A stretch of DNA of 64,000 nucleotides from positions 4,836,001 through 4,900,000 of the forward strand of contig NZ_CP011131.1 of the NCBI RefSeq assembly GCF_001442805.1, in the 5' to 3' direction. Every line of letters starts with the position of its first letter. Positions within the stretch are counted from its first letter, which is position 1. The DNA comes from Lysobacter gummosus (GTDB taxonomy: Bacteria > Pseudomonadota > Gammaproteobacteria > Xanthomonadales > Xanthomonadaceae). The translations under genes and the position numbers were made by a program. Under the pieces are notes generated by a model, which saw only the letters and a program-made list of their open reading frames with translations, did no database searches and was not told where the DNA came from. Shown piece by piece: positions 5,228-41,958 of the stretch.

Positions 5228-6178
5228 ATGGACTCGACCCACGTCATGAAGACTCTGCAACTGTGGCCCATTGTCACGCTCGATCCGGGCTCGGGCGAAC
5301 TGGTCGCTTTCGATCCCGGCCCGCAGCGCACGCTGTATACCCTGCATACGCTCGGATCGCCGGATCATCGCGGCGGCGGCCCGGCTTCGTCGAAGCACCG
5401 TCCGGTCGCGTCGCGGCGCTATCGCGCGCAGGCCTGGCTCGACGGCGAATGCGTGTTGGACGCGATCATCGACGACAAGCATCACAACATCCATCACTTG
5501 CAACCACTCGGCGACGATCTGTTGCTGGCCTGCGCGCGCTCCCATCAGCGCGGCGGTTACAGCCGCCTCAACGGCCGCGTGTACTCGCGATCGGGCGAGT
5601 TGTTGCGCGAATTGGCGCTGGGCGACGGCATCGAGCATCTTCAGACGACGGCGCGCGGCGAGATATGGACCGGGTATTTCGACGAGGGGGTATTCGGCGA
5701 CGACCCGATTTCCACCGCGGGCCTGGTCGCCTGGGACGCGCAAGGAACGAGCGTGTTCCGCTACGATCCGCCGGCACCGCTGGACAGCATGGCCGATTGC
5801 TACGCGCTCAACCTCGCCAGCCATAACGAAACCTGGTTGTGCTACTACACCGGCTTTCCGCTGGTGCAACTGCGCGATCACCGCATCGTGCGCTCATGGA
5901 CGTTGCCCGATCCCGCGATCGGTTCGCATGCCTTCGCCGTGCATCATCGCCATGTCCTGTTCGCCGGAGGCTACCGCCATCGCGATACTTATCACTTGCT
6001 GAGCCTGGATGACGGTCCACAGGCCTGCGCGGCGGCGAGTTTCGAATTGATCGACGAAGACGGCGAGCCGCTGCGCGCGGCGCGCATCGCCGGCCGCGGC
6101 GATACGCTGTACCTGCTCAGCGGCCGGCGCATTTACGCCTGCGACATCCATCGGGCGATCAGCGAATCCGGCCGCTGA
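5228..6178 (+). CDS. Hypothetical protein, beta-propeller-like
   Basis: About 316 aa (or 310 from the second Met, MKTLQLWPIVTLDPGSGE). No family is recognised with certainty. The sequence alternates short hydrophobic strands with GD/DG turns, for example DGECVLDAIIDDKHHNIHHL, REIWTGYFDEGVFGDDP-like and HVLFAGGYRHRDTYHLLSLDD. This is the texture of a beta-propeller or of a sensor-like repeat protein. No signal peptide, so it is probably cytosolic. It follows the pentapeptide gene closely in the same direction. Confidence 0.6.
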   Translation: MDSTHVMKTLQLWPIVTLDPGSGELVAFDPGPQRTLYTLHTLGSPDHRGGGPASSKHRPVASRRYRAQAWLDGECVLDAIIDDKHHNIHHLQPLGDDLLLACARSHQRGGYSRLNGRVYSRSGELLRELALGDGIEHLQTTARGEIWTGYFDEGVFGDDPISTAGLVAWDAQGTSVFRYDPPAPLDSMADCYALNLASHNETWLCYYTGFPLVQLRDHRIVRSWTLPDPAIGSHAFAVHHRHVLFAGGYRHRDTYHLLSLDDGPQACAAASFELIDEDGEPLRAARIAGRGDTLYLLSGRRIYACDIHRAISESGR

Positions 6179-9991: not shown

Positions 9992-11508
9992 CCATCACGT
10001 CCCAGCAGTACGCCCATCTGGCATCGCATTCCTACGGCGAAGTGCACAACGGACTGAAAGGCCAAATTCACCATCTCGTCGGCGATAAATTCGAACGCGA
10101 AGGTGTAACGTACAAGGTCTTGGAATCCATGGATCGCCCGTCCGGCTACCAGGGGGCCATCTACCAGCGCGTGGATACCGGCGAGATCGTGGTGGCGCAT
10201 CGCGGCACCGAATTCGATCGCGAGGCCAAGAGAGATGGCCTCATTGCAGACGGCGGCATGGTGACCAAAGGCGTCAATCCCCAGATCGATGACGCGCTGG
10301 AGTTGACTAGGCACGCATTGGACCACGCAAAAAAGAGTGTTCGTAGATACGGCCATATCCCCGAAGTCACCACCACCGGCCATTCCCTAGGCGGCGGCCT
10401 GGCCCAGGCCACCGCGCACAAATTCGGCCTGCGCGGCGAAGCCTTCAATCCCTACGGCGCCGCCAGCCTCGACTACGGCGTGCCCGAAGGCGGCAACCGC
10501 TTCGTCAATCACGTCATGGCCGGCGATGCGGTCAGCGCCGCGAGTCCGCATTACGGCCAGGTTCGCGTCTACGCCAAGCCGGAAGAAATCAGCAGTCTGA
10601 AAGCCGCCGGTTACAACAACCACGAAGGCCTTTCGACCGACGCCCTGCATCGCGCTCCGATCGTGGCGGCGGTGCTGTCCGGAACCAAGGGCACCTCGCA
10701 CAACATGGACAACTTCCTTAACGTTGATGGCGCCGGCAACAAGGATGTCTCCGTCCTCAGCGATCCCAGGACCCAGGCCTTGGCTAAGCAATACGAGCCG
10801 ATGATCGACAAGTACCGCGACGATGTTCGCCACTTGCGCGGCGGCATCACCCAAACCGTCGAAATCGGCGAGAAAGTGGTCGAGCTGCACGAGAAGGCTG
10901 CCAAAAGAGCTGTCGAGACCGGCGTACAGACCGGCAAGGCGGTCGTCGACACCGGCGAGAAGATTCTTGAACTGCACGAGAAGGCCGACAGGAAGGCCGC
11001 CGAGCTAGGCGTGCAAGTCGGAAAGCAAGCCATCGAAACCGGCGAGAAAGCGGTCGATCTGGGCGTTTATGCCGGGAAGAAAGCCATCGAGGCAGGCGAG
11101 CACTTTGGCAAGAAGGCCGCCGAACTGGGCGAAAGCGTCGGCCGGAAGGCCACGCAGGTCGGGGAGAACGTCGGCAAGAAGGCGTACGAAGCGGCCGACA
11201 GCATCAGCGACTTCCTGCACTCCAAAGCCGCTGCAGTCGGCGCCGGCACCGCGCTGCTCAGCAGGGACCCCTTGGCCTTCGTCAAACAAATGACTCAGGC
11301 CCATGCCTCCGGCGATCGGGAAACTTTCCGCGCGATGACCCAGTCCGCCGCGAACCACGATGCCGGGCAACAACTGCGCCAACAGGCCGTCGCCACCGTC
11401 GATCGGCAAGAGCAACAGCAAGCGGCCGAACGCTTGGTCGCGCAACAGCAGCAACAACGCGAGCAGCAGCAAGCCGCATCGCATAGTCACGGTGGCCGCT
11501 CGCGCTGA
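9988..11508 (+). CDS. Class 3 lipase-like protein with helical repeat stalk, candidate antibacterial effector
   Basis: 506 aa, no signal peptide. Residues about 1-250 are a class 3 lipase domain: YQRVDTGEIVVAHRGTEFD (oxyanion region), TTTGHSLGGGLAQATA with nucleophile Ser133, FNPYGAASLDY and GDAVSAASPHY. Residues about 290-410 are amphipathic helical repeats of the type ETGxxxGKxAxETGEKxxEL. The tail is Gln-rich (EQQQAAERLVAQQQQQREQQQ). Leaderless lipases paired with a lipoprotein are typical of type VI (Tle) or Xanthomonadales type IV (X-Tfe) effectors. I do not recognise a full XVIPCD secretion domain; only the Gln-rich tail is reminiscent. Confidence 0.8.
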   Translation: MTITSQQYAHLASHSYGEVHNGLKGQIHHLVGDKFEREGVTYKVLESMDRPSGYQGAIYQRVDTGEIVVAHRGTEFDREAKRDGLIADGGMVTKGVNPQIDDALELTRHALDHAKKSVRRYGHIPEVTTTGHSLGGGLAQATAHKFGLRGEAFNPYGAASLDYGVPEGGNRFVNHVMAGDAVSAASPHYGQVRVYAKPEEISSLKAAGYNNHEGLSTDALHRAPIVAAVLSGTKGTSHNMDNFLNVDGAGNKDVSVLSDPRTQALAKQYEPMIDKYRDDVRHLRGGITQTVEIGEKVVELHEKAAKRAVETGVQTGKAVVDTGEKILELHEKADRKAAELGVQVGKQAIETGEKAVDLGVYAGKKAIEAGEHFGKKAAELGESVGRKATQVGENVGKKAYEAADSISDFLHSKAAAVGAGTALLSRDPLAFVKQMTQAHASGDRETFRAMTQSAANHDAGQQLRQQAVATVDRQEQQQAAERLVAQQQQQREQQQAASHSHGGRSR

Positions 11509-24603: not shown

Positions 24604-25446
24604 TCAGACCGCGCCCTGCCCCGGCTGCGCCAGCTCGATCCGTTCGAGTATCGCGCTCCAGATCGCCCGGGGCGGCGCCGCGGCGTAGCCCGATTCCTGC
24701 GCATCATTGCATTCGATGACGATCCAGCGACCGTCCACGGCCCTGGCTATATCGACCACAAGGAACGGCACTTGCAGACGCCGCGCCGCCTCGTGCGCCA
24801 GCGCGAGTCCGGTGTCGATATCGTCGCAGGCATAGTCGGCCGCCTGATACCAATAGCGGCCCCACCCCACGCAATGCCCGCGCCACCAGAAACTACGGAA
24901 CTCCATCGACGCCGGCACCTTTCCGGGGATACCGCCCGCTACCGGCTGCAGCGGCACGAACTCGCGCACGACCGGCCGCTGCCAATGCAGTACCGGATCG
25001 CGGCGGTATTGCTCAGCGGCCCATACGTATTGACCGCGATCGCGAATGATCGACAGTTTCAGATTGTGCTTGTTGGTCTGACGCGAGCCCTTGAGGAAGA
25101 TCGGCCAGGCAAACTCGCGCTCTATCTCCGTCGCGTCCGGCAATTGCTCGAAAATCCGCGTGCGCGGCGTCATGTCGGTCAGTAGCGGATACCACACCGA
25201 CAACTCGCTGGCCCGCTCGTGCTGCTCGGGCGTGTTCACCGGACGCAAACCCCAATCGAGCTTTTCCTGGTACTGCGCGGCATAGTCCTCGACCGCGCCG
25301 ACGCGCAGGACGCAGGGGGTGTCGCCTTCGAAAAATGCCGGATGGCTGCAGCGAAAATACAGTTCGAAATCGAAGTCGTAGACCGCGACGCCGACCGGCG
25401 CGCTGACGATCGTCAACTTGTCTTCCAATAATGCGATCCGCAGCAT
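24604..25446 (-). CDS. ATP-grasp domain protein
   Basis: 280 aa. A C-terminal ATP-grasp-like half is visible: FLKGSRQTNKHNLK (nucleotide-binding Lys), VVREFVPLQPVAGG, SMEFRSFWWRGHCVGWGRYW, and metal-binding VPFLVVDIARAVDGRWIVIECND (Asp and Glu-x-Asn-Asp). Proteins of this type (DUF4343-like) form carbon-nitrogen ligase products or peptide modifications. No partner gene is adjacent, so the substrate is open. Confidence 0.75.
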   Translation of the reverse strand: MLRIALLEDKLTIVSAPVGVAVYDFDFELYFRCSHPAFFEGDTPCVLRVGAVEDYAAQYQEKLDWGLRPVNTPEQHERASELSVWYPLLTDMTPRTRIFEQLPDATEIEREFAWPIFLKGSRQTNKHNLKLSIIRDRGQYVWAAEQYRRDPVLHWQRPVVREFVPLQPVAGGIPGKVPASMEFRSFWWRGHCVGWGRYWYQAADYACDDIDTGLALAHEAARRLQVPFLVVDIARAVDGRWIVIECNDAQESGYAAAPPRAIWSAILERIELAQPGQGAV

Positions 25447-31759: not shown

Positions 31760-33034
31760 TTATCCCGCCGATGTCTCGACAGACGCATCGCGCATCGCGC
31801 GCACAGGCAACCCGCCCGTGAGCAACGCCATGCCGCGCCGCCCCGGCGCCATCACCATGCCGGTGGTGACCAGCAGGAAGCGCTCAAGCTCCAGCGATAC
31901 GCAACTGACCACGCAGAACGCATCGCCCTCGCGGTGATGGACCAAGTGATGCACGTCGATGCCGCGCCCGGCCAGGGTGACGATCAATTCTCGCAGCAAC
32001 GCCGACGGCGGCTGTCGCTCGCGTTGTGGGTACGACCAGTCCGTCTGCCGCATGCGCTGACGCTCCACCTGAAAATAAGCGCAGGCGCGCAGCTTCGGAT
32101 ACTCGCTCAGCGCCTGCAGCACCTGCCGGCTGTACTCACCCACGGTGGCCAGACGCTGCCCCACCAGCACCGTCTGCACCAGTTCGGTCAGCGCGCGGAT
32201 CGCCGCATGGCCGGCGTACAAGGACGCGCCGTACCCACTCGGGAATACCGCTTCGCCATCAAGGATGCGATCGGTGGTGGCGATGAATGCCGGCACGCCG
32301 AGATCGCTGGTCGCATCGATCAACAACACTTCGCGACCCAGTTGTTCGCTCGCGGCCGCGTGCACCGCCGCGACCGATTCGGGCAGCGAGCCCGGATCGA
32401 CCCAGGCGCCGAAACTCGAAGCATCGCCCAGGTAATGCGCGAGCAGGAACAACGACCACGAATCGCGTTCGATCAGTTCGCCGATCGCATGCACCGCCGC
32501 TTCTTCCAGGCTGGCGCCGATCGCGGTCCCGCTGTTGGAGCCGTAGCGGATCACGCTGGCGTAGTCGAAGTCGTCGCCCGGCAACAGATCCGCCAGCGCA
32601 TTGGGCCGGCACAGGAACGCCGGCACGGCGAGCGCGTCGCCATCGCTTTCATCGAAAAACCGGCGATAGCACAGGCAACTCAGTTGCCGCGAGGCCTGCC
32701 GGCCGAACTCGGCAACGAACGGCAACGCGGCATACCGCGGATCGGCGAACAGTTGCGTGGCGGCGCGCAATTCCACGCGTTCTTGCGGCGCACAGCTGTT
32801 CGCGTAGATATGCTCCACCGCCTCGTACAACGCGCCGACCCGCGCCGCCTCGGGCTCGCCCTTGCCGAAGCCGCTGCCGATGGCCTCGCCGTCGGCGTCG
32901 TGCACCATGCACAGCGCGCCTTGCAGCCCCGTGTCGCTGCTGTCGATGCGCGCGCTCCAGCCTTGCTGGGCGATAAAGGCCCTCACCACTCGCTCGGCCC
33001 CGGCCAGCGACCGCTCGCGTTCCAACGGAATCAT
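31760..33034 (-). CDS. YcaO-domain peptide-modifying enzyme
   Basis: 424 aa. YcaO hallmarks appear in order: GFGKGEPEAARVGALYEAVE (GKG at 57-59, ExxE at 71/74), YGSNSGTAIGASLEEA (166-181), AIGELIERDSW (ERD at 189-191), then AAIRALTELVQTVLVGQRL. YcaO enzymes phosphorylate a backbone amide with ATP and install azolines, thioamides or amidines in ribosomal peptides. The C-terminus (LPVRAMRDASVETSAG) lacks the PxPxP ending of azoline-forming members. No E1-like, TfuA or dehydrogenase gene is adjacent. The start at 33034 has AAGGAG upstream. The gene follows a 45-codon peptide gene across a terminator. Confidence 0.88.
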   Translation of the reverse strand: MIPLERERSLAGAERVVRAFIAQQGWSARIDSSDTGLQGALCMVHDADGEAIGSGFGKGEPEAARVGALYEAVEHIYANSCAPQERVELRAATQLFADPRYAALPFVAEFGRQASRQLSCLCYRRFFDESDGDALAVPAFLCRPNALADLLPGDDFDYASVIRYGSNSGTAIGASLEEAAVHAIGELIERDSWSLFLLAHYLGDASSFGAWVDPGSLPESVAAVHAAASEQLGREVLLIDATSDLGVPAFIATTDRILDGEAVFPSGYGASLYAGHAAIRALTELVQTVLVGQRLATVGEYSRQVLQALSEYPKLRACAYFQVERQRMRQTDWSYPQRERQPPSALLRELIVTLAGRGIDVHHLVHHREGDAFCVVSCVSLELERFLLVTTGMVMAPGRRGMALLTGGLPVRAMRDASVETSAG

Positions 33035-33061
33035 GCCCGCGCTCCTTGCGCCATGGGTTCG

Positions 33062-33099
33062 CAAAAACGAAGCGGCCCGGCCTGAGCCGCGCCGCTTCG
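33062..33099 (-). terminator. Intrinsic terminator/attenuator between peptide gene and ycaO
   Basis: On the minus strand, arms CGAAGCGGC and GCCGCTTCG with an inner CGGC-TCAG-GCCG stem form a near-perfect hairpin, followed by TTTTTGC. It lies 16 bp after the peptide stop and 27 bp before the ycaO start. This would leave most transcripts peptide-only, with read-through for the enzyme, as is common in RiPP operons. Confidence 0.8.
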
Positions 33100-33115
33100 C
33101 TCACACCCTCGCCGC

Positions 33116-33253
33116 TTACTTGGCGAGCAGATCCAGGATCGCCTTCTCTTCCGGCGTCGGCGCCGGCGCCTGGTTCTGGCTGACCTGCTGCTGCGCGGCA
33201 ATGGCCAGGCTGACAGGCGACTTGACGATGGTCGTTCCGATCAACTTCTTCAT
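33116..33253 (-). CDS. Candidate RiPP precursor peptide, 45 aa
   Basis: The peptide starts MKKLIGTTIVKSPVSLA and ends PTPEEKAILDLLAK, with a Gln/Ala/Pro-rich middle (AAQQQVSQNQAPAP). GAGG lies seven bases before the ATG. It contains no Cys; the only hydroxyl residues are Thr7, Thr8, Ser12, Ser15, Ser25 and Thr33. No signal peptide or double-Gly leader cleavage site is obvious. Its position immediately upstream of ycaO, separated by a hairpin terminator, is the evidence for precursor status. The family is unknown to me. Alternatively it could be an unrelated small protein. Confidence 0.7.
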   Translation of the reverse strand: MKKLIGTTIVKSPVSLAIAAQQQVSQNQAPAPTPEEKAILDLLAK

Positions 33254-33769
33254 ACAGTCCCTCGTAGGTGTTGGTGCAAGCGATAAATCCCCGCAGTGCC
33301 GGACCATGGCGCCGGTGTGAACCGCGCGCTCGCGGCGGCCTGCTGATCAGCAATACGCCGGCCGTGACCGGGGAGTCAATCACAACCAGATCGCGGGCCG
33401 TGTGGTTATGCGACTGCGGCCACAGATTCGCGGGTTTTGGCTGGGGCCGGCGGGTTCACGGCGCCGCCTTTCCCGGCGAACAGACGCCTGGGTCCAACGT
33501 AACTGCGAAACGAAACGGCGACGACAAACGGGCCCGCGAGCGCTAGCCGCAAACACCCGCGGCCAATCGCCGCAAGGCCTACAGCGCATGCGCTGCAACC
33601 TGTCGAATTTCCGCGTTCGATGCGATCACGAACGCACACAGCGAAACATCCGCTTTGCCGCATCCGCCCGAAGCGCGCCGCGCGGTGATGAACGCGATCG
33701 ATCCATGTTAGCTGTTGCACCGCGAACGCCCCGATGCGTTCGCATCACTCACAAAAGGAACTTGAACGA
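33254..33769. other. Intergenic promoter region of the peptide gene and a secreted protein
   Basis: 516 bp between two divergent genes. Open frames inside are Arg/Pro-rich shadows without ribosome-binding sites. Promoters for both flanking genes must lie here, but no convincing -35/-10 pair could be assigned by eye. Confidence 0.4.
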
Positions 33770-38159: not shown

Positions 38160-39431
38160 CTACGACAAGCGCTCGTCCAGGCCGAGCACGATGTCGCGTT
38201 CCAGATCGAACGGCAGTACCCGCAAGCGCAGACTGTCGGAGTAGACGAACTCCTCCAGCGGCGCGTGAAAGTCGACGGTTTTCGGATAGACCAGAAACAA
38301 CTCGCCGCGATCGTCCAGATAGTGCCGGCCATAGGCGAACAGCTGATAGAAATCCGATTGCGCCAGCCCGTACTTCTCGCCGGCCATGCCGCGCGAGACG
38401 TCCAGCCGTTTCCACTTGGTATCGAGTACCCAGCTGCGATCGCGGCGCGACAGCAGGAAATCGGGCTTGAGCTGGAACCAGTCGCGCTCGCGGTGGCGGC
38501 ACAGGTGACGCGAGGACGCGCCGGGTTTGACCGCGGTGTCGGCCGGCAACTGGCGCCGCAGACATGCCTCGACATAGCGCTCGAACACCCGTTCCATCGG
38601 GAACAGCAAACTCAGGCCGCGCCATGCTCCAGCGACGGCGAGCGGACTGTGGCCGCCGAGAATCACGCTGCACCAGGGCTTCAACGGCCGGTAGTGGGCC
38701 ATCAAGCGATCCTCGCGCCAGTCGCGAAAATCCGTGGCGTGATCGGCGCTGACGGGCACCGCCGCCAGATAGCTGGCGAGTTCCCGCGACAAGCGCCAAT
38801 TGCGCGGGTCGCCGGTCAGCTTGCAGACCCGGTCGAGCGCGCTGCGCAGCAAGCGGTTTTCCGCTCGGTCGCAATCGAATATGTCGTGCTCGATCTGGAA
38901 CAGGTGCTCGCGTCCGGGCGGTTGCCGCAGCTGCCGCGTGACATCCAGCCGACCGCGCAGATAGCGCTGTTGCTCGCGCACGGCGCGGTAATCGAAGCGT
39001 ATGCCGCGCTTGATCAGATGGTCGAGGCCTTCGAGAAACTGCCGCATCACCCATTCGGTCAGCGGCGCATCGAAGGTACGCAAATGCGTCGCGGCGCTTT
39101 CGCGCGGGCTCAGATTGAGGCAGCGCGACAGCATCTTGCACAACAGATTGCGGGCGGCAGCGACGGCCTGCTCATCCTGGCCGTCGACGTGCTTGGGCAA
39201 TATCTCGATGCGGGTGCCGCACGGCGCCTCGATCACACCGACATAATTGTCCAATCGCAGCCAACGCCGACCCTCGAGTTGCACCAGGGCCGCGCCGGAT
39301 GCGCGCAGGCGTTCGCTTTCCGCGCACAGCCAGTCGAAGACAGCGACGGGAACGGCGGCTTCGTCCAGGGAACCCGCGGCCGCGCCGGTGGTCAGACGCG
39401 CGTACTCGCGGACAGTGACCAGAGCGGCCAT
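38160..39431 (-). CDS. mcrC: McrC, nuclease component of McrBC type IV restriction system
   Basis: 423 aa. N-terminal LVTVREYARL, GVIEAPCGTRIEILPK, and the McrBC 5-methylcytosine restriction pattern through LTEWVMRQFLEGLDHLIKRG. The C-terminal PD-(D/E)xK nuclease is LKPDFLLSRRDRSWVLDTKWK. It follows mcrB by 2 bp. McrC supplies the nuclease and stimulates McrB GTPase for cutting modified DNA. Intact itself, but the upstream mcrB frame is broken, so the system may be inactive. Confidence 0.92.
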   Translation of the reverse strand: MAALVTVREYARLTTGAAAGSLDEAAVPVAVFDWLCAESERLRASGAALVQLEGRRWLRLDNYVGVIEAPCGTRIEILPKHVDGQDEQAVAAARNLLCKMLSRCLNLSPRESAATHLRTFDAPLTEWVMRQFLEGLDHLIKRGIRFDYRAVREQQRYLRGRLDVTRQLRQPPGREHLFQIEHDIFDCDRAENRLLRSALDRVCKLTGDPRNWRLSRELASYLAAVPVSADHATDFRDWREDRLMAHYRPLKPWCSVILGGHSPLAVAGAWRGLSLLFPMERVFERYVEACLRRQLPADTAVKPGASSRHLCRHRERDWFQLKPDFLLSRRDRSWVLDTKWKRLDVSRGMAGEKYGLAQSDFYQLFAYGRHYLDDRGELFLVYPKTVDFHAPLEEFVYSDSLRLRVLPFDLERDIVLGLDERLS

Positions 39432-39433
39432 GG

Positions 39434-41958
39434 TCAGACCGCGATGATGCCGCGATAACTGTCGGCCTGGCCGAACGCTTCCGTATCGACCTGCCAGATC
39501 CGGTTTTCAAGCGGCCAAATCGGTCGTGCTGCCGAACAGGCCTTCGACCGACCGCTTGGGCTCGATGATGAATCGATGCCCTTCGGCCTTGTTCTGATCG
39601 TTGAGCACCCAGCGGATTCGTTCCCAGTCCTCGAAGAAGTATTCCTGCAGCAGCGGCAGAATCTGATTGCGGAACACGGCGGCCAGACGCGACAGGCTGC
39701 GCTCCTTGTCGAGCGCCATGAAATACGCATGCCCCAGGTGATGGTCGCGATCGAGCAGAACCTCGATGCGCCGATTCATGACCGCGAGCATCTCGCCGAT
39801 ATTGACGCCTTCCACGACGATCGCAGACAGCAACTCGGGCCGCGACGGCATCTCGGAAGAACTCGAAGCGGCGCCGCAGGGCGATGTCCAGCCCGGTCAG
39901 GGAGCGGTCGGCGGTGTTCATCGTTCCGATCAAATGGACATTGCCCGGAACCCCGAACCTCTCCTTCGAATAGGGAAGGATGACCTCCAGCGCCTCGTCC
40001 TCGCCGACGCGCTTGGACGGCTCGATCAAGGTGATCAGCTCGCCGAAAATACGCGAGATATTCCCGCGATTGATCTCGTCGATAATCAGTACGTGCGGCC
40101 GCGCGCCGGGCTGCGCTTCGCCCTGCAGCCCCAGCAGCTGCTCCAGCTTGTCGCGGTCTATGGAGCCGTCGTGCAACTGGTAGATCGTCATCTGGCTGAA
40201 CTGATTGTGCATCAGCTGATCGAGCGGCAAGGATGGCTCGTAGACGCGCAGCCAGCGGATCGCGCGGCATTGCGTGTACTCGTCGCCCTCGCGCGGAACC
40301 GGGCGGTAATCGCCGATGACCTCACCGATGGCGCGGAACTTCTGCAGGCCGTCGCTGACGACCAGCAAATCGCCCTGCTTGATCCGCAGCAGGAACGTCG
40401 CCACCGCGGTCACGGCGTAATCGCCGGACTCCACCTTCTGGCCTTCGCGCAGGAAGCGTTGGTAGACCTCGGCCCGGGTAGTGCAACCACTGAAGTCGAT
40501 GCCGTCGCCGTACCCCAGCAGCGCGATGCCGTTCTTGATGCATTCCTCGTAGATGTACGAATCGCTGCCCCGGCTGTTGCCGAGCGACATCTTCCAGATG
40601 CGCTTACCGGAAAGGTCGAACGGCGCCTGCGCTTTCCTGGCTATCTTCGCGCCGGCGGCCGCGGCGCAGATCGATTTGAATACGCCATCGTCCACTTCAT
40701 AACGCAGGGCGCCGCCATCGACCGGCGCATGTGCGCGGATTCCTTCGACGAAATCCTCGTAGCTGAAGCTTTGATGGAAGGTCACGAACTGCACCAGCTT
40801 GTCGTGGACCAATTCGTCGAAACGCTTTTTCAAGACTGCGCGCCCGCCCGGGTCGGCGGCATGTTGGGCCAACAGGTCCGGAGCGAGGATTTCCAACGCC
40901 TTGTCGATCGCGTGATAGGTCTTGCCCGTGCCCGGCGGGCCAAACAGAATCTGATTGAGGGGCGGCTTGCTCATCATCGGGGTCCTTTCGAAAGGCGGCT
41001 CGGCGACTCGGTTGCGGACAGGCGACACGGCGGGGAGCTGGCGCGAAATCAGGTAGCGCCCTTCGGCTTCCGGCGAGATGTGGACGATGTCGCCGGCCTT
41101 GATGTCCGCGTCGGAAAAATAACGGTTCAAGCGCTTGCGCAGGCGGCCACGGGTGTCGCTCGACGCGCGGATGTCGGACTCGAATTCGAATCCGGTGTCG
41201 GTGCGGAAGCGCGCGACTTCGCCATGTTCCTCGTCGCCTAAGCCACCCCGCATGTTTTCGGGAAACGGCGCCGACACCAGATTGAGGGTCAGATAGCCGT
41301 TGCGCACCGCGCCGTCGGTGAGCTTGATCGCGTAGGGATTGTTGCGCGCCCACTCCCGCCACAAGCGATGACTGAAGGCGACGATGGACTCGGACTGCGG
41401 CCGGCGCGCGGCGATGTCGCGATACAGCCGGCTTTGCGGCAATTCGCGGCGGCTGTTCGCCGGCAGGCCGAGAAATCCCAGCAACGGCTTGCGCAGGTAG
41501 ACGCAGACGATCTGCGGCGACTGCCGGGACTGATAGTGAAAGGCGATTTTCCAGCGGTACGCCTCGCCCAACGGGCTGGCGTCGATGTCCTCGAGCCGGC
41601 CATCGCGCGCGGCCGTGGCCACGGCTATTACTTCGCGCCTGACCGCTTCGAAGGCCTCGGCCGCGGTCCGGCCGAACTTGCGATACCAGCCGTACTGGCC
41701 GTCGTATGCACGCGAAAGATCGTCGTCGGCCGCCGTGGTGGCGATAGCGGTGGCGGCGACGCGGGAGTAAATGCCGAACTTGAACGCCGATCCGCCCCAG
41801 ATGCTGCCCAGGCCGTCCAGCCGGCTTTCCATCCAGTAGACGAAACTGTTCTTGTCGCCGGCGGTGGCGTATTCGGGCAGCGTCATCGTGCGCAGACGCT
41901 CGATCGGCCAGGCCTGAAGGAAATCGTCCCAGACGCGAGTGTCTTGATCGAACGCCAT
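39434..41958 (-). pseudogene. mcrB: McrB GTPase with DUF3578-like N-terminus and EVE-like insert; two frameshifts
   Basis: The N-terminal ~230 aa (FVYWMESRLDGLGSIWGGSA) resemble the DUF3578/MrcB-N DNA-reader domain. The AAA+ motor has Walker A FGPPGTGKTYHA, FHQSFSYEDFVEGI, Walker B VLIIDEINRGNIS, and the McrB GTPase signature MNTADRS near residue 680. Between them, residues ~450-590 look like an EVE/PUA modified-base reader (GIALLGYGDGIDFSGC; RIKQGDLLVVSDGLQKF). After ALRRRFEF one extra base near 39855 shifts the frame to EMPSRPELLSAIVV, and a second near 39511-39516 shifts to LENRIWQVDTEAF before the stop. Removing both restores a normal McrB end. Confidence 0.85.

Follow-up and report, generated by a model that had tools for sequence, protein, structure and literature searches.

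Within a 64,000-nucleotide stretch of the Lysobacter gummosus chromosome (contig NZ_CP011131.1, positions 4,836,001 to 4,900,000; hereafter the window), a gene of 45 codons encoding a cysteine-free peptide lies just upstream of a gene encoding a stand-alone YcaO enzyme. This pairing is conserved in Lysobacter, the peptides share a C-terminal motif, and the enzyme belongs to the half of the YcaO tree that contains the bottromycin-type enzymes. The peptide and the YcaO very probably constitute a functional precursor/enzyme unit. More specifically, the pair can be read, with a probability of about 0.5, as a minimal and partner-free YcaO unit that would be guided by a C-terminal follower and would activate a backbone amide of the peptide, most likely yielding an amidine (-18 Da).

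The peptide open reading frame (ORF) is located 81 nt upstream of the YcaO gene on the same strand. A preliminary description of this DNA, made from the sequence alone, had reported a short Cys-free gene with a good ribosome-binding site followed by a YcaO gene with all ATP-binding motifs, and both observations are borne out. Indeed, a G/A-rich Shine-Dalgarno-like stretch is found 5' of all 24 listed peptide ORFs, and the GKG, ExxEH, ERD, GxGxS and R...E..Q motifs are invariant across 30 aligned YcaO proteins. The start listed for the YcaO gene, TTG 33064, is almost certainly an extension 10 codons too long and ATG 33034 the true start, because close homologues begin with MIP[LY]ERER. In the modelled enzyme, the YcaO fold extends across residues 10-422.

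The same description had noted the lack of the usual partners and of a PxPxP end, which also holds. The enzyme ends in ...MRDASVETSAG, with neither PxPxP nor a proline-rich end, and no E1-like, ocin-ThiF or TfuA gene adjoins it among the neighbours scanned. The L. gummosus genome encodes one YcaO and gives no cyclo_dehy_ocin match and a single sub-threshold cyclo_dehyd_2 match, 1.6 Mb away. The S12-type family NF040716 (E. coli YcaO) is not among the matches of the window YcaO at E up to 1.

Matches to the window YcaO occur in 17 of 395 genomes of the family, in a scan that scored at most four candidates per genome and may therefore have missed extra copies (the window genome was checked separately). 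Twenty-three of the genes are close and full-length (47-100% identity) and come from 11 Lysobacter genomes, window included. The other eight matches, from six genomes, are weaker and all partial, except one of 36% identity and near full length (genome G145) that is preceded by a different small ORF (L012/L033). Among the 395 genomes, a profile built from 17 peptides matches 24 times, in the same 11 genomes that carry the close YcaOs, and all 24 matches lie just 5' of one of the 23 YcaO genes, on the same strand. Recovery of the peptides is unsurprising, because the profile was built from them. The informative part of this co-occurrence is that neither an orphan peptide nor a close YcaO devoid of peptide was found in the 395 genomes. 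A search for peptide homologues next to related YcaO genes, proposed with the preliminary description as a check, thus gave 23 out of 23 close Lysobacter YcaO genes preceded by a peptide. Among 5.8 billion proteins, 35 homologues of the window peptide were found, none of them bearing a functional name save one (P0083), whose label in one source, 'multisubunit Na+/H+ antiporter MnhC subunit', looks like a misannotation. The proportion of synonymous differences (pS) exceeds that of non-synonymous ones (pN) in 25 of 26 related peptide pairs, which are not independent; the remaining pair is identical.

The conservation of the peptide is concentrated at its C-terminal end. In the alignment of 17 Lysobacter peptides (17 of the 24, near-copies being omitted), only M1, T33, E36, L40, A44 and K45 are invariant, and Asn replaces T33 in one database homologue (P0107). 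In the window's subgroup (group A, 15 peptides, with the longer P0092, the partial P0099 and the tandem-peptide type P0086 and P0087 excluded), mean pairwise identity is 0.87 for residues 1-11 (MKKLIGTTIVK in the window), 0.45 for residues 12-16, 0.62 for residues 17-31 and 0.92 for residues 32-45. Therefore, the C-terminal end is the most constrained part of the peptide. Its motif, TxxExxxL followed by a terminal AK, includes [ST]xxE, the classic helix capping box, and this end is probably a follower. Two Lysobacter subgroups have peptides of 58-59 aa that start with MG rather than MKK. At one Lysobacter locus (L044, same place as L007), two different precursor-like peptides are encoded 438 and 83 nt 5' of a single YcaO gene.

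Related pairs also occur far outside Lysobacter. A single-sequence query of genome contigs with the window YcaO gave no match, and an alignment query was used instead. Scanning one genome per species (84,980 species) with this profile revealed 92 relatives, the best 80 of which correspond to 78 loci. The 70 non-Lysobacter YcaOs among these best 80 (24-40% identity) belong mainly to Pseudomonas, Yersinia, Stenotrophomonas, Nonomuraea and other actinobacteria. A candidate small ORF precedes the YcaO gene at many of the 70 loci. A motif test was applied to 63 of them, omitting six bottromycin-type loci (L125, L128, L132, L133, L134 and L135) and one with a short upstream sequence (L101). The test sought, within 700 nt upstream, a small ORF that has both a start and a ribosome-binding site and carries [LVPI][TS]xxExxx[LI] near its end. 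Such an ORF was found in 50 of the 63 loci versus 3 of 2458 equally sized control windows from the same loci, and in none of 17 other-type YcaOs. The looser [TS]xxExxx[LI] was found in 51 loci versus 18 controls, and the strict T..E...L in 44 versus 8. These counts should be read knowing that the motif was settled after viewing the peptides (T..E...L derives from the Lysobacter invariants, yet had already been seen elsewhere by then) and that the 63 loci are not independent, since they include close relatives (18 from Pseudomonas). One of the 50 matches, from Paenibacillus (L130), looks unlike the others.

Several of these loci display features of their own. Of the 18 Pseudomonas loci, three were examined (L102, L098 and L117). 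In each, some 1-3 kb beyond the start of the YcaO gene, an S-adenosylmethionine (SAM) methyltransferase gene follows and overlaps it, and L102 and L117 additionally carry an S33-like alpha/beta hydrolase gene, giving a slightly larger unit. In a metagenome-assembled genome of Mycobacteriaceae (L085), the small ORF ends in LTAAEQQLLAQLAK, much like the Lysobacter C-terminus TPEEKAILDLLAK. The genome of Mycobacterium szulgai (L067/L166) has ten YcaO matches; a second match lies about 560 bases from its solo-type YcaO on the same strand, apparently with a small ORF between them.

A resemblance to the bottromycin system is seen both in the C-terminal motif of the peptide and in the YcaO. A bottromycin precursor with a GPxVVFDC core was found in seven actinobacterial loci, and its follower, LSALEMEEL, carries the same [TS]xxExxxL motif. 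At these loci, the second and first YcaOs after the precursor were labelled BtmF and BtmE by gene order and similarity. In comparisons with six of the loci (L134 excluded), whose E-values relate to that small set, the window YcaO matches BtmF with E 3e-22 to 1e-31, versus E 1.6 at best for BtmE. Three other solo YcaO queries match BtmF with E 3e-18 to 3e-33 and BtmE weakly or not at all (best E 3e-10 for a Stenotrophomonas query against L084, others 4e-4 or worse). A careful 60-row tree unites the window group, the solo pairs, BtmF and BtmE against fused, S12-like and other YcaOs (96/94), the types of these outgroups being assigned from length, end sequence and genome. This tree omits 53 rows of a quick tree of 113 rows, including the long-branch L094, L110, L114, L130, L131, L147, L149 and L153. 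An N-terminal ERE is found in the window protein, most solo rows and all six BtmF rows. At one locus, from Streptomyces orinoci (L134), the bottromycin-type precursor, at about 8142, has the variant core MGPLVVFDC. In Saccharopolyspora sp. NFXS83 (L084), a bottromycin precursor (near 5650) with two YcaOs and a solo YcaO (10040-11239) lie within about 6 kb, and the peptide paired with the solo YcaO reads MGVVILLVDHAESL...

In bottromycin biosynthesis, according to passages of the literature, BtmF and the amidohydrolase BtmI form the macroamidine, a follower-bearing substrate being suggested for both (PMC5103208); the machinery binds the C-terminal follower and both YcaOs work without partner proteins (PMC7136475). 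The two Lysobacter genes would make up a self-contained unit for the modification of a ribosomal peptide. As they are separated by a hairpin, the peptide would probably be produced in larger amounts than the YcaO. The YcaO, alone, would recognize the predicted C-terminal helix of the peptide through the capping box TxxE, L40 and the terminal AK, in the way that a C-terminal follower is used by the enzymes of bottromycin, and would use ATP to activate an amide of the backbone within the N-terminal half. Attack on this amide by an amine (the N-terminal one, or that of K2, K3 or K11) would then close an amidine ring (-18 Da), the odds that the product is an amidine being about even. Removal of the follower and export would depend on genes located elsewhere, or might be absent. 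On a broader scale, we would tentatively propose, with rather less than even confidence, that these pairs represent a large and unrecognized class of minimal follower-guided YcaO systems for ribosomally synthesized and post-translationally modified peptides (RiPPs) in Proteobacteria and Actinobacteria. Such a class would combine a TxxExxxL capping-box follower with an amidine-forging, partner-free YcaO, often as two genes. Bottromycin would be one elaborate branch of it, and Lysobacter would hold up to three paralogous pairs per genome.

Various observations weigh against this reading of the pair. Thirteen of the 63 distant loci lack the motif (in the two from Stenotrophomonas, the peptides have NxxExxxL and so fall outside the rule). 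An MG start, like that of bottromycin, is possible in 46 of the 50 distant motif peptides, whereas the window peptide starts with MKK, which Met aminopeptidase should not trim. Whole-peptide profiles compare poorly (21% against actinobacterial pairs, 6% against those of Pseudomonas/Yersinia and 0.3% against bottromycin); homology to bottromycin over the whole peptide is not supported, the profiles not being alike and the C-terminal motif alone being common to both. In the tree, Lysobacter, BtmF and BtmE fall into three clades, and the window YcaO is not nested in BtmF (both 100/100). Given the long branches and the unsettled branching order of the groups, descent of one group from another is not demonstrated. 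Some sequences depart from ERE (ERA in one of three BtmE rows and in one solo row, ERQ in another solo row), which makes it only a hint. Neither an amidohydrolase nor an exporter adjoins the pair among the neighbours scanned. Lastly, the top structural match to the enzyme model is the YcaO of Methanocaldococcus jannaschii (19% identity), which is a thioamidase.

This match bears on the first alternative, a TfuA-independent thioamidation converting a backbone C=O into C=S (+16 Da), which would parallel the stand-alone archaeal YcaOs that thioamidate methyl-coenzyme M reductase. It is nevertheless unlikely, as the window YcaO is kin to the bottromycin-type side of a tree that held no archaeal YcaO, and as thioamide RiPP clusters are described with an adjacent TfuA (PMC8120280). 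The complete L. gummosus genome gives no TfuA match, and membership of the TfuA-YcaO thioamide RiPPs was rejected on this ground.

The preliminary description had envisaged an action on Ser/Thr or on the backbone, and the two halves of this proposal did not fare equally. Formation of oxazoline or methyloxazoline would have possible substrates in S12, S15, S25, T7, T8 and T33, the peptide being devoid of Cys, as well as a precedent in the stand-alone BtmE, implied in thiazoline formation with no cyclodehydratase partner encoded (passages of PMC5103208). However, apart from T33, located in the C-terminal motif, no Ser/Thr is conserved across the 17 aligned peptides or their subgroups, and position 15 varies between S, T, Y, A and H among the 15 group-A peptides. 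The genome has no ocin partner and the enzyme no PxPxP end. Heterocyclization of Ser/Thr is thus quite unlikely because these residues are not conserved, and backbone (amidine) chemistry appears as the better inference. An azoline-forming TOMM cyclodehydratase was rejected: PxPxP is lacking, the searches for an E1-like or ocin-ThiF partner gave only the distant sub-threshold cyclo_dehyd_2 match, and the TOMM_cyclo_SagD score is 61 bits versus a cut-off of 219.

It is equally improbable that the YcaO modifies another cellular target and that the small ORF encodes a regulator or adaptor rather than a substrate. The lack of an exporter among the scanned neighbours of the pair and the location of peptide/YcaO units at differing chromosomal sites would suit this explanation, which is opposed by the occurrence of two peptides before one YcaO in one genome, by a variable middle between conserved ends, as suits a precursor, and by the resemblance of the C-terminus to a bottromycin-type follower. 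An ATP-dependent cleavage of the peptide backbone, as by MusD (PDB 7u58), is very improbable, since the MusD chain has 784 residues, far more than the window enzyme, and the predicted model is better matched by eight other YcaO entries.

The features of the locus are listed below.

Features of the peptide/YcaO locus (positions in the window)
Feature	Position	Strand	Remarks
Candidate precursor peptide, 45 aa, Cys-free	33116..33253	-	MKKLIGTTIVKSPVSLAIAAQQQVSQNQAPAPTPEEKAILDLLAK; profile matches each just 5' of a YcaO gene
Ribosome-binding site GAGGG	33259..33263	-	5 nt before peptide ATG
Residues 1-16, N-terminal region, presumed core	33206..33253	-	Putative core
Residues 12-15, most variable part of peptide	33209-33220	-	Group-A identity comparison
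Residues 32-45, follower-like C-terminal motif TxxExxxL...AK	33119..33160	-	PTPEEKAILDLLAK; invariants and motif test
Intergenic region with hairpin (33072-33090) and T-rich tail	33035..33115	-	Possible attenuator
Stand-alone YcaO, 424 aa from ATG 33034	31760..33034	-	Pfam PF02624, E 9e-34

The intrinsic terminator previously placed between the two genes was retained in part only. A stem-loop with a T-rich tail is present, though the 5-kb region that includes it shows no excess of terminator-like sites (3 versus a shuffle mean of 3.8). As a conserved feature the terminator holds only partly, a T-run occurring in the window and its three closest relatives and at no other locus. The hairpin itself recurs: judged by eye, a GC-rich central hairpin of varying sequence is found in 22 of 23 predicted structures (L039 being the exception). 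The folding z-score is -3.2 for the window, and 11 of the 23 loci fall in the lowest 5% of 100 shuffles, 12 being outside. The hairpin may act as an attenuator that would hold the enzyme level below that of the peptide.

The neighbours scanned look like ordinary chromosomal genes (alkaline phosphatase, McrC-type McrBC component, M28 peptidase, LysR, MFS). The phosphatase-side flank is syntenic in five of six relatives of the window's subgroup; therefore, the locus is stably inherited within it. Outside the peptide/YcaO stretch, no ORF of at least 70 aa within about 10 kb occurs in more than three of the five Lysobacter subgroups, and most occur in two (shadow frames of YcaO itself matched more widely). 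An operon with further conserved genes was thus rejected, none recurring in all five subgroups. McrBC-type restriction genes are found at 38160-41958 on the minus strand (McrC Pfam E 1e-106; the larger upstream ORF is McrB-like by eye only), and an ATP-grasp protein of the R2K clade (PF14243, E 7e-27) is encoded at 24604-25446, also on the minus strand, adjoining small proteins that match Pfam weakly or not at all.

No account of such pairs was found in the open-licence literature searched, where the exact peptide strings gave no match; the datasets of PMC8442711 may list the actinobacterial peptides. In a transcriptome study, an L. gummosus YcaO gene was upregulated 2.5-fold in RM medium versus the 5/5 control and three orthologues were reported in L. 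capsici; the passages on this gene name no peptide (PMC10745450). Its product presumably belongs to the same family as the window YcaO. The undescribed class of YcaO-modified peptides initially suggested stands as a compact precursor/YcaO pair without partners, not as an isolated oddity, given its bottromycin-type kin. Few relatives of bottromycin macroamidine chemistry are known. If the chemistry is indeed the same, two genes without any partner would offer a simple test bed for amide activation by YcaO, and the pairs would provide a naturally occurring collection of possible macrocyclases whose cores differ. They would also supply a search rule, a small ORF with TxxExxxL 5' of a stand-alone YcaO gene, for unannotated peptides of soil bacteria such as Lysobacter.

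Among known systems, the archaeal YcaO involved in thioamidation of a glycine of McrA (MJ1094) acts on a large protein and has no known paired small peptide, unlike the window YcaO, which is 19% identical to it and paired with a small peptide. Streptamidine (AmiA/AmiD), for which 1514 stand-alone actinobacterial YcaOs were mined (PMC8442711), also combines a YcaO with a precursor lacking a Ser/Thr/Cys-rich region, and the amidine proposed here was shown for it. However, the same source reports for streptamidine a proline-rich C-terminus of AmiD, ALV-containing motifs, FecBCDE-like genes and AmiB as a proposed partner. Such genes were not seen among the window neighbours scanned, and membership was rejected, the window peptide lacking ALV and its YcaO a proline-rich end. 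The solo pairs of Pseudomonas, Yersinia, Nonomuraea and others share with the window a small ORF with the C-terminal motif 5' of a related stand-alone YcaO gene; they differ from it by the MG start that is possible in most of their motif peptides and, in the three Pseudomonas loci, by the downstream methyltransferase. Compared with bottromycin (BtmD with BtmF/BotCD), the window genome has no second, thiazoline-forming YcaO (BtmE), the window peptide has no GPxVVFDC core, no Cys and no MG start, no tailoring gene was seen among the neighbours scanned and the YcaO belongs to a separate clade. Nevertheless, both systems rely on a stand-alone YcaO from the same side of the tree, lack an E1-like partner and carry [TS]xxExxxL at the C-terminal end of the precursor.
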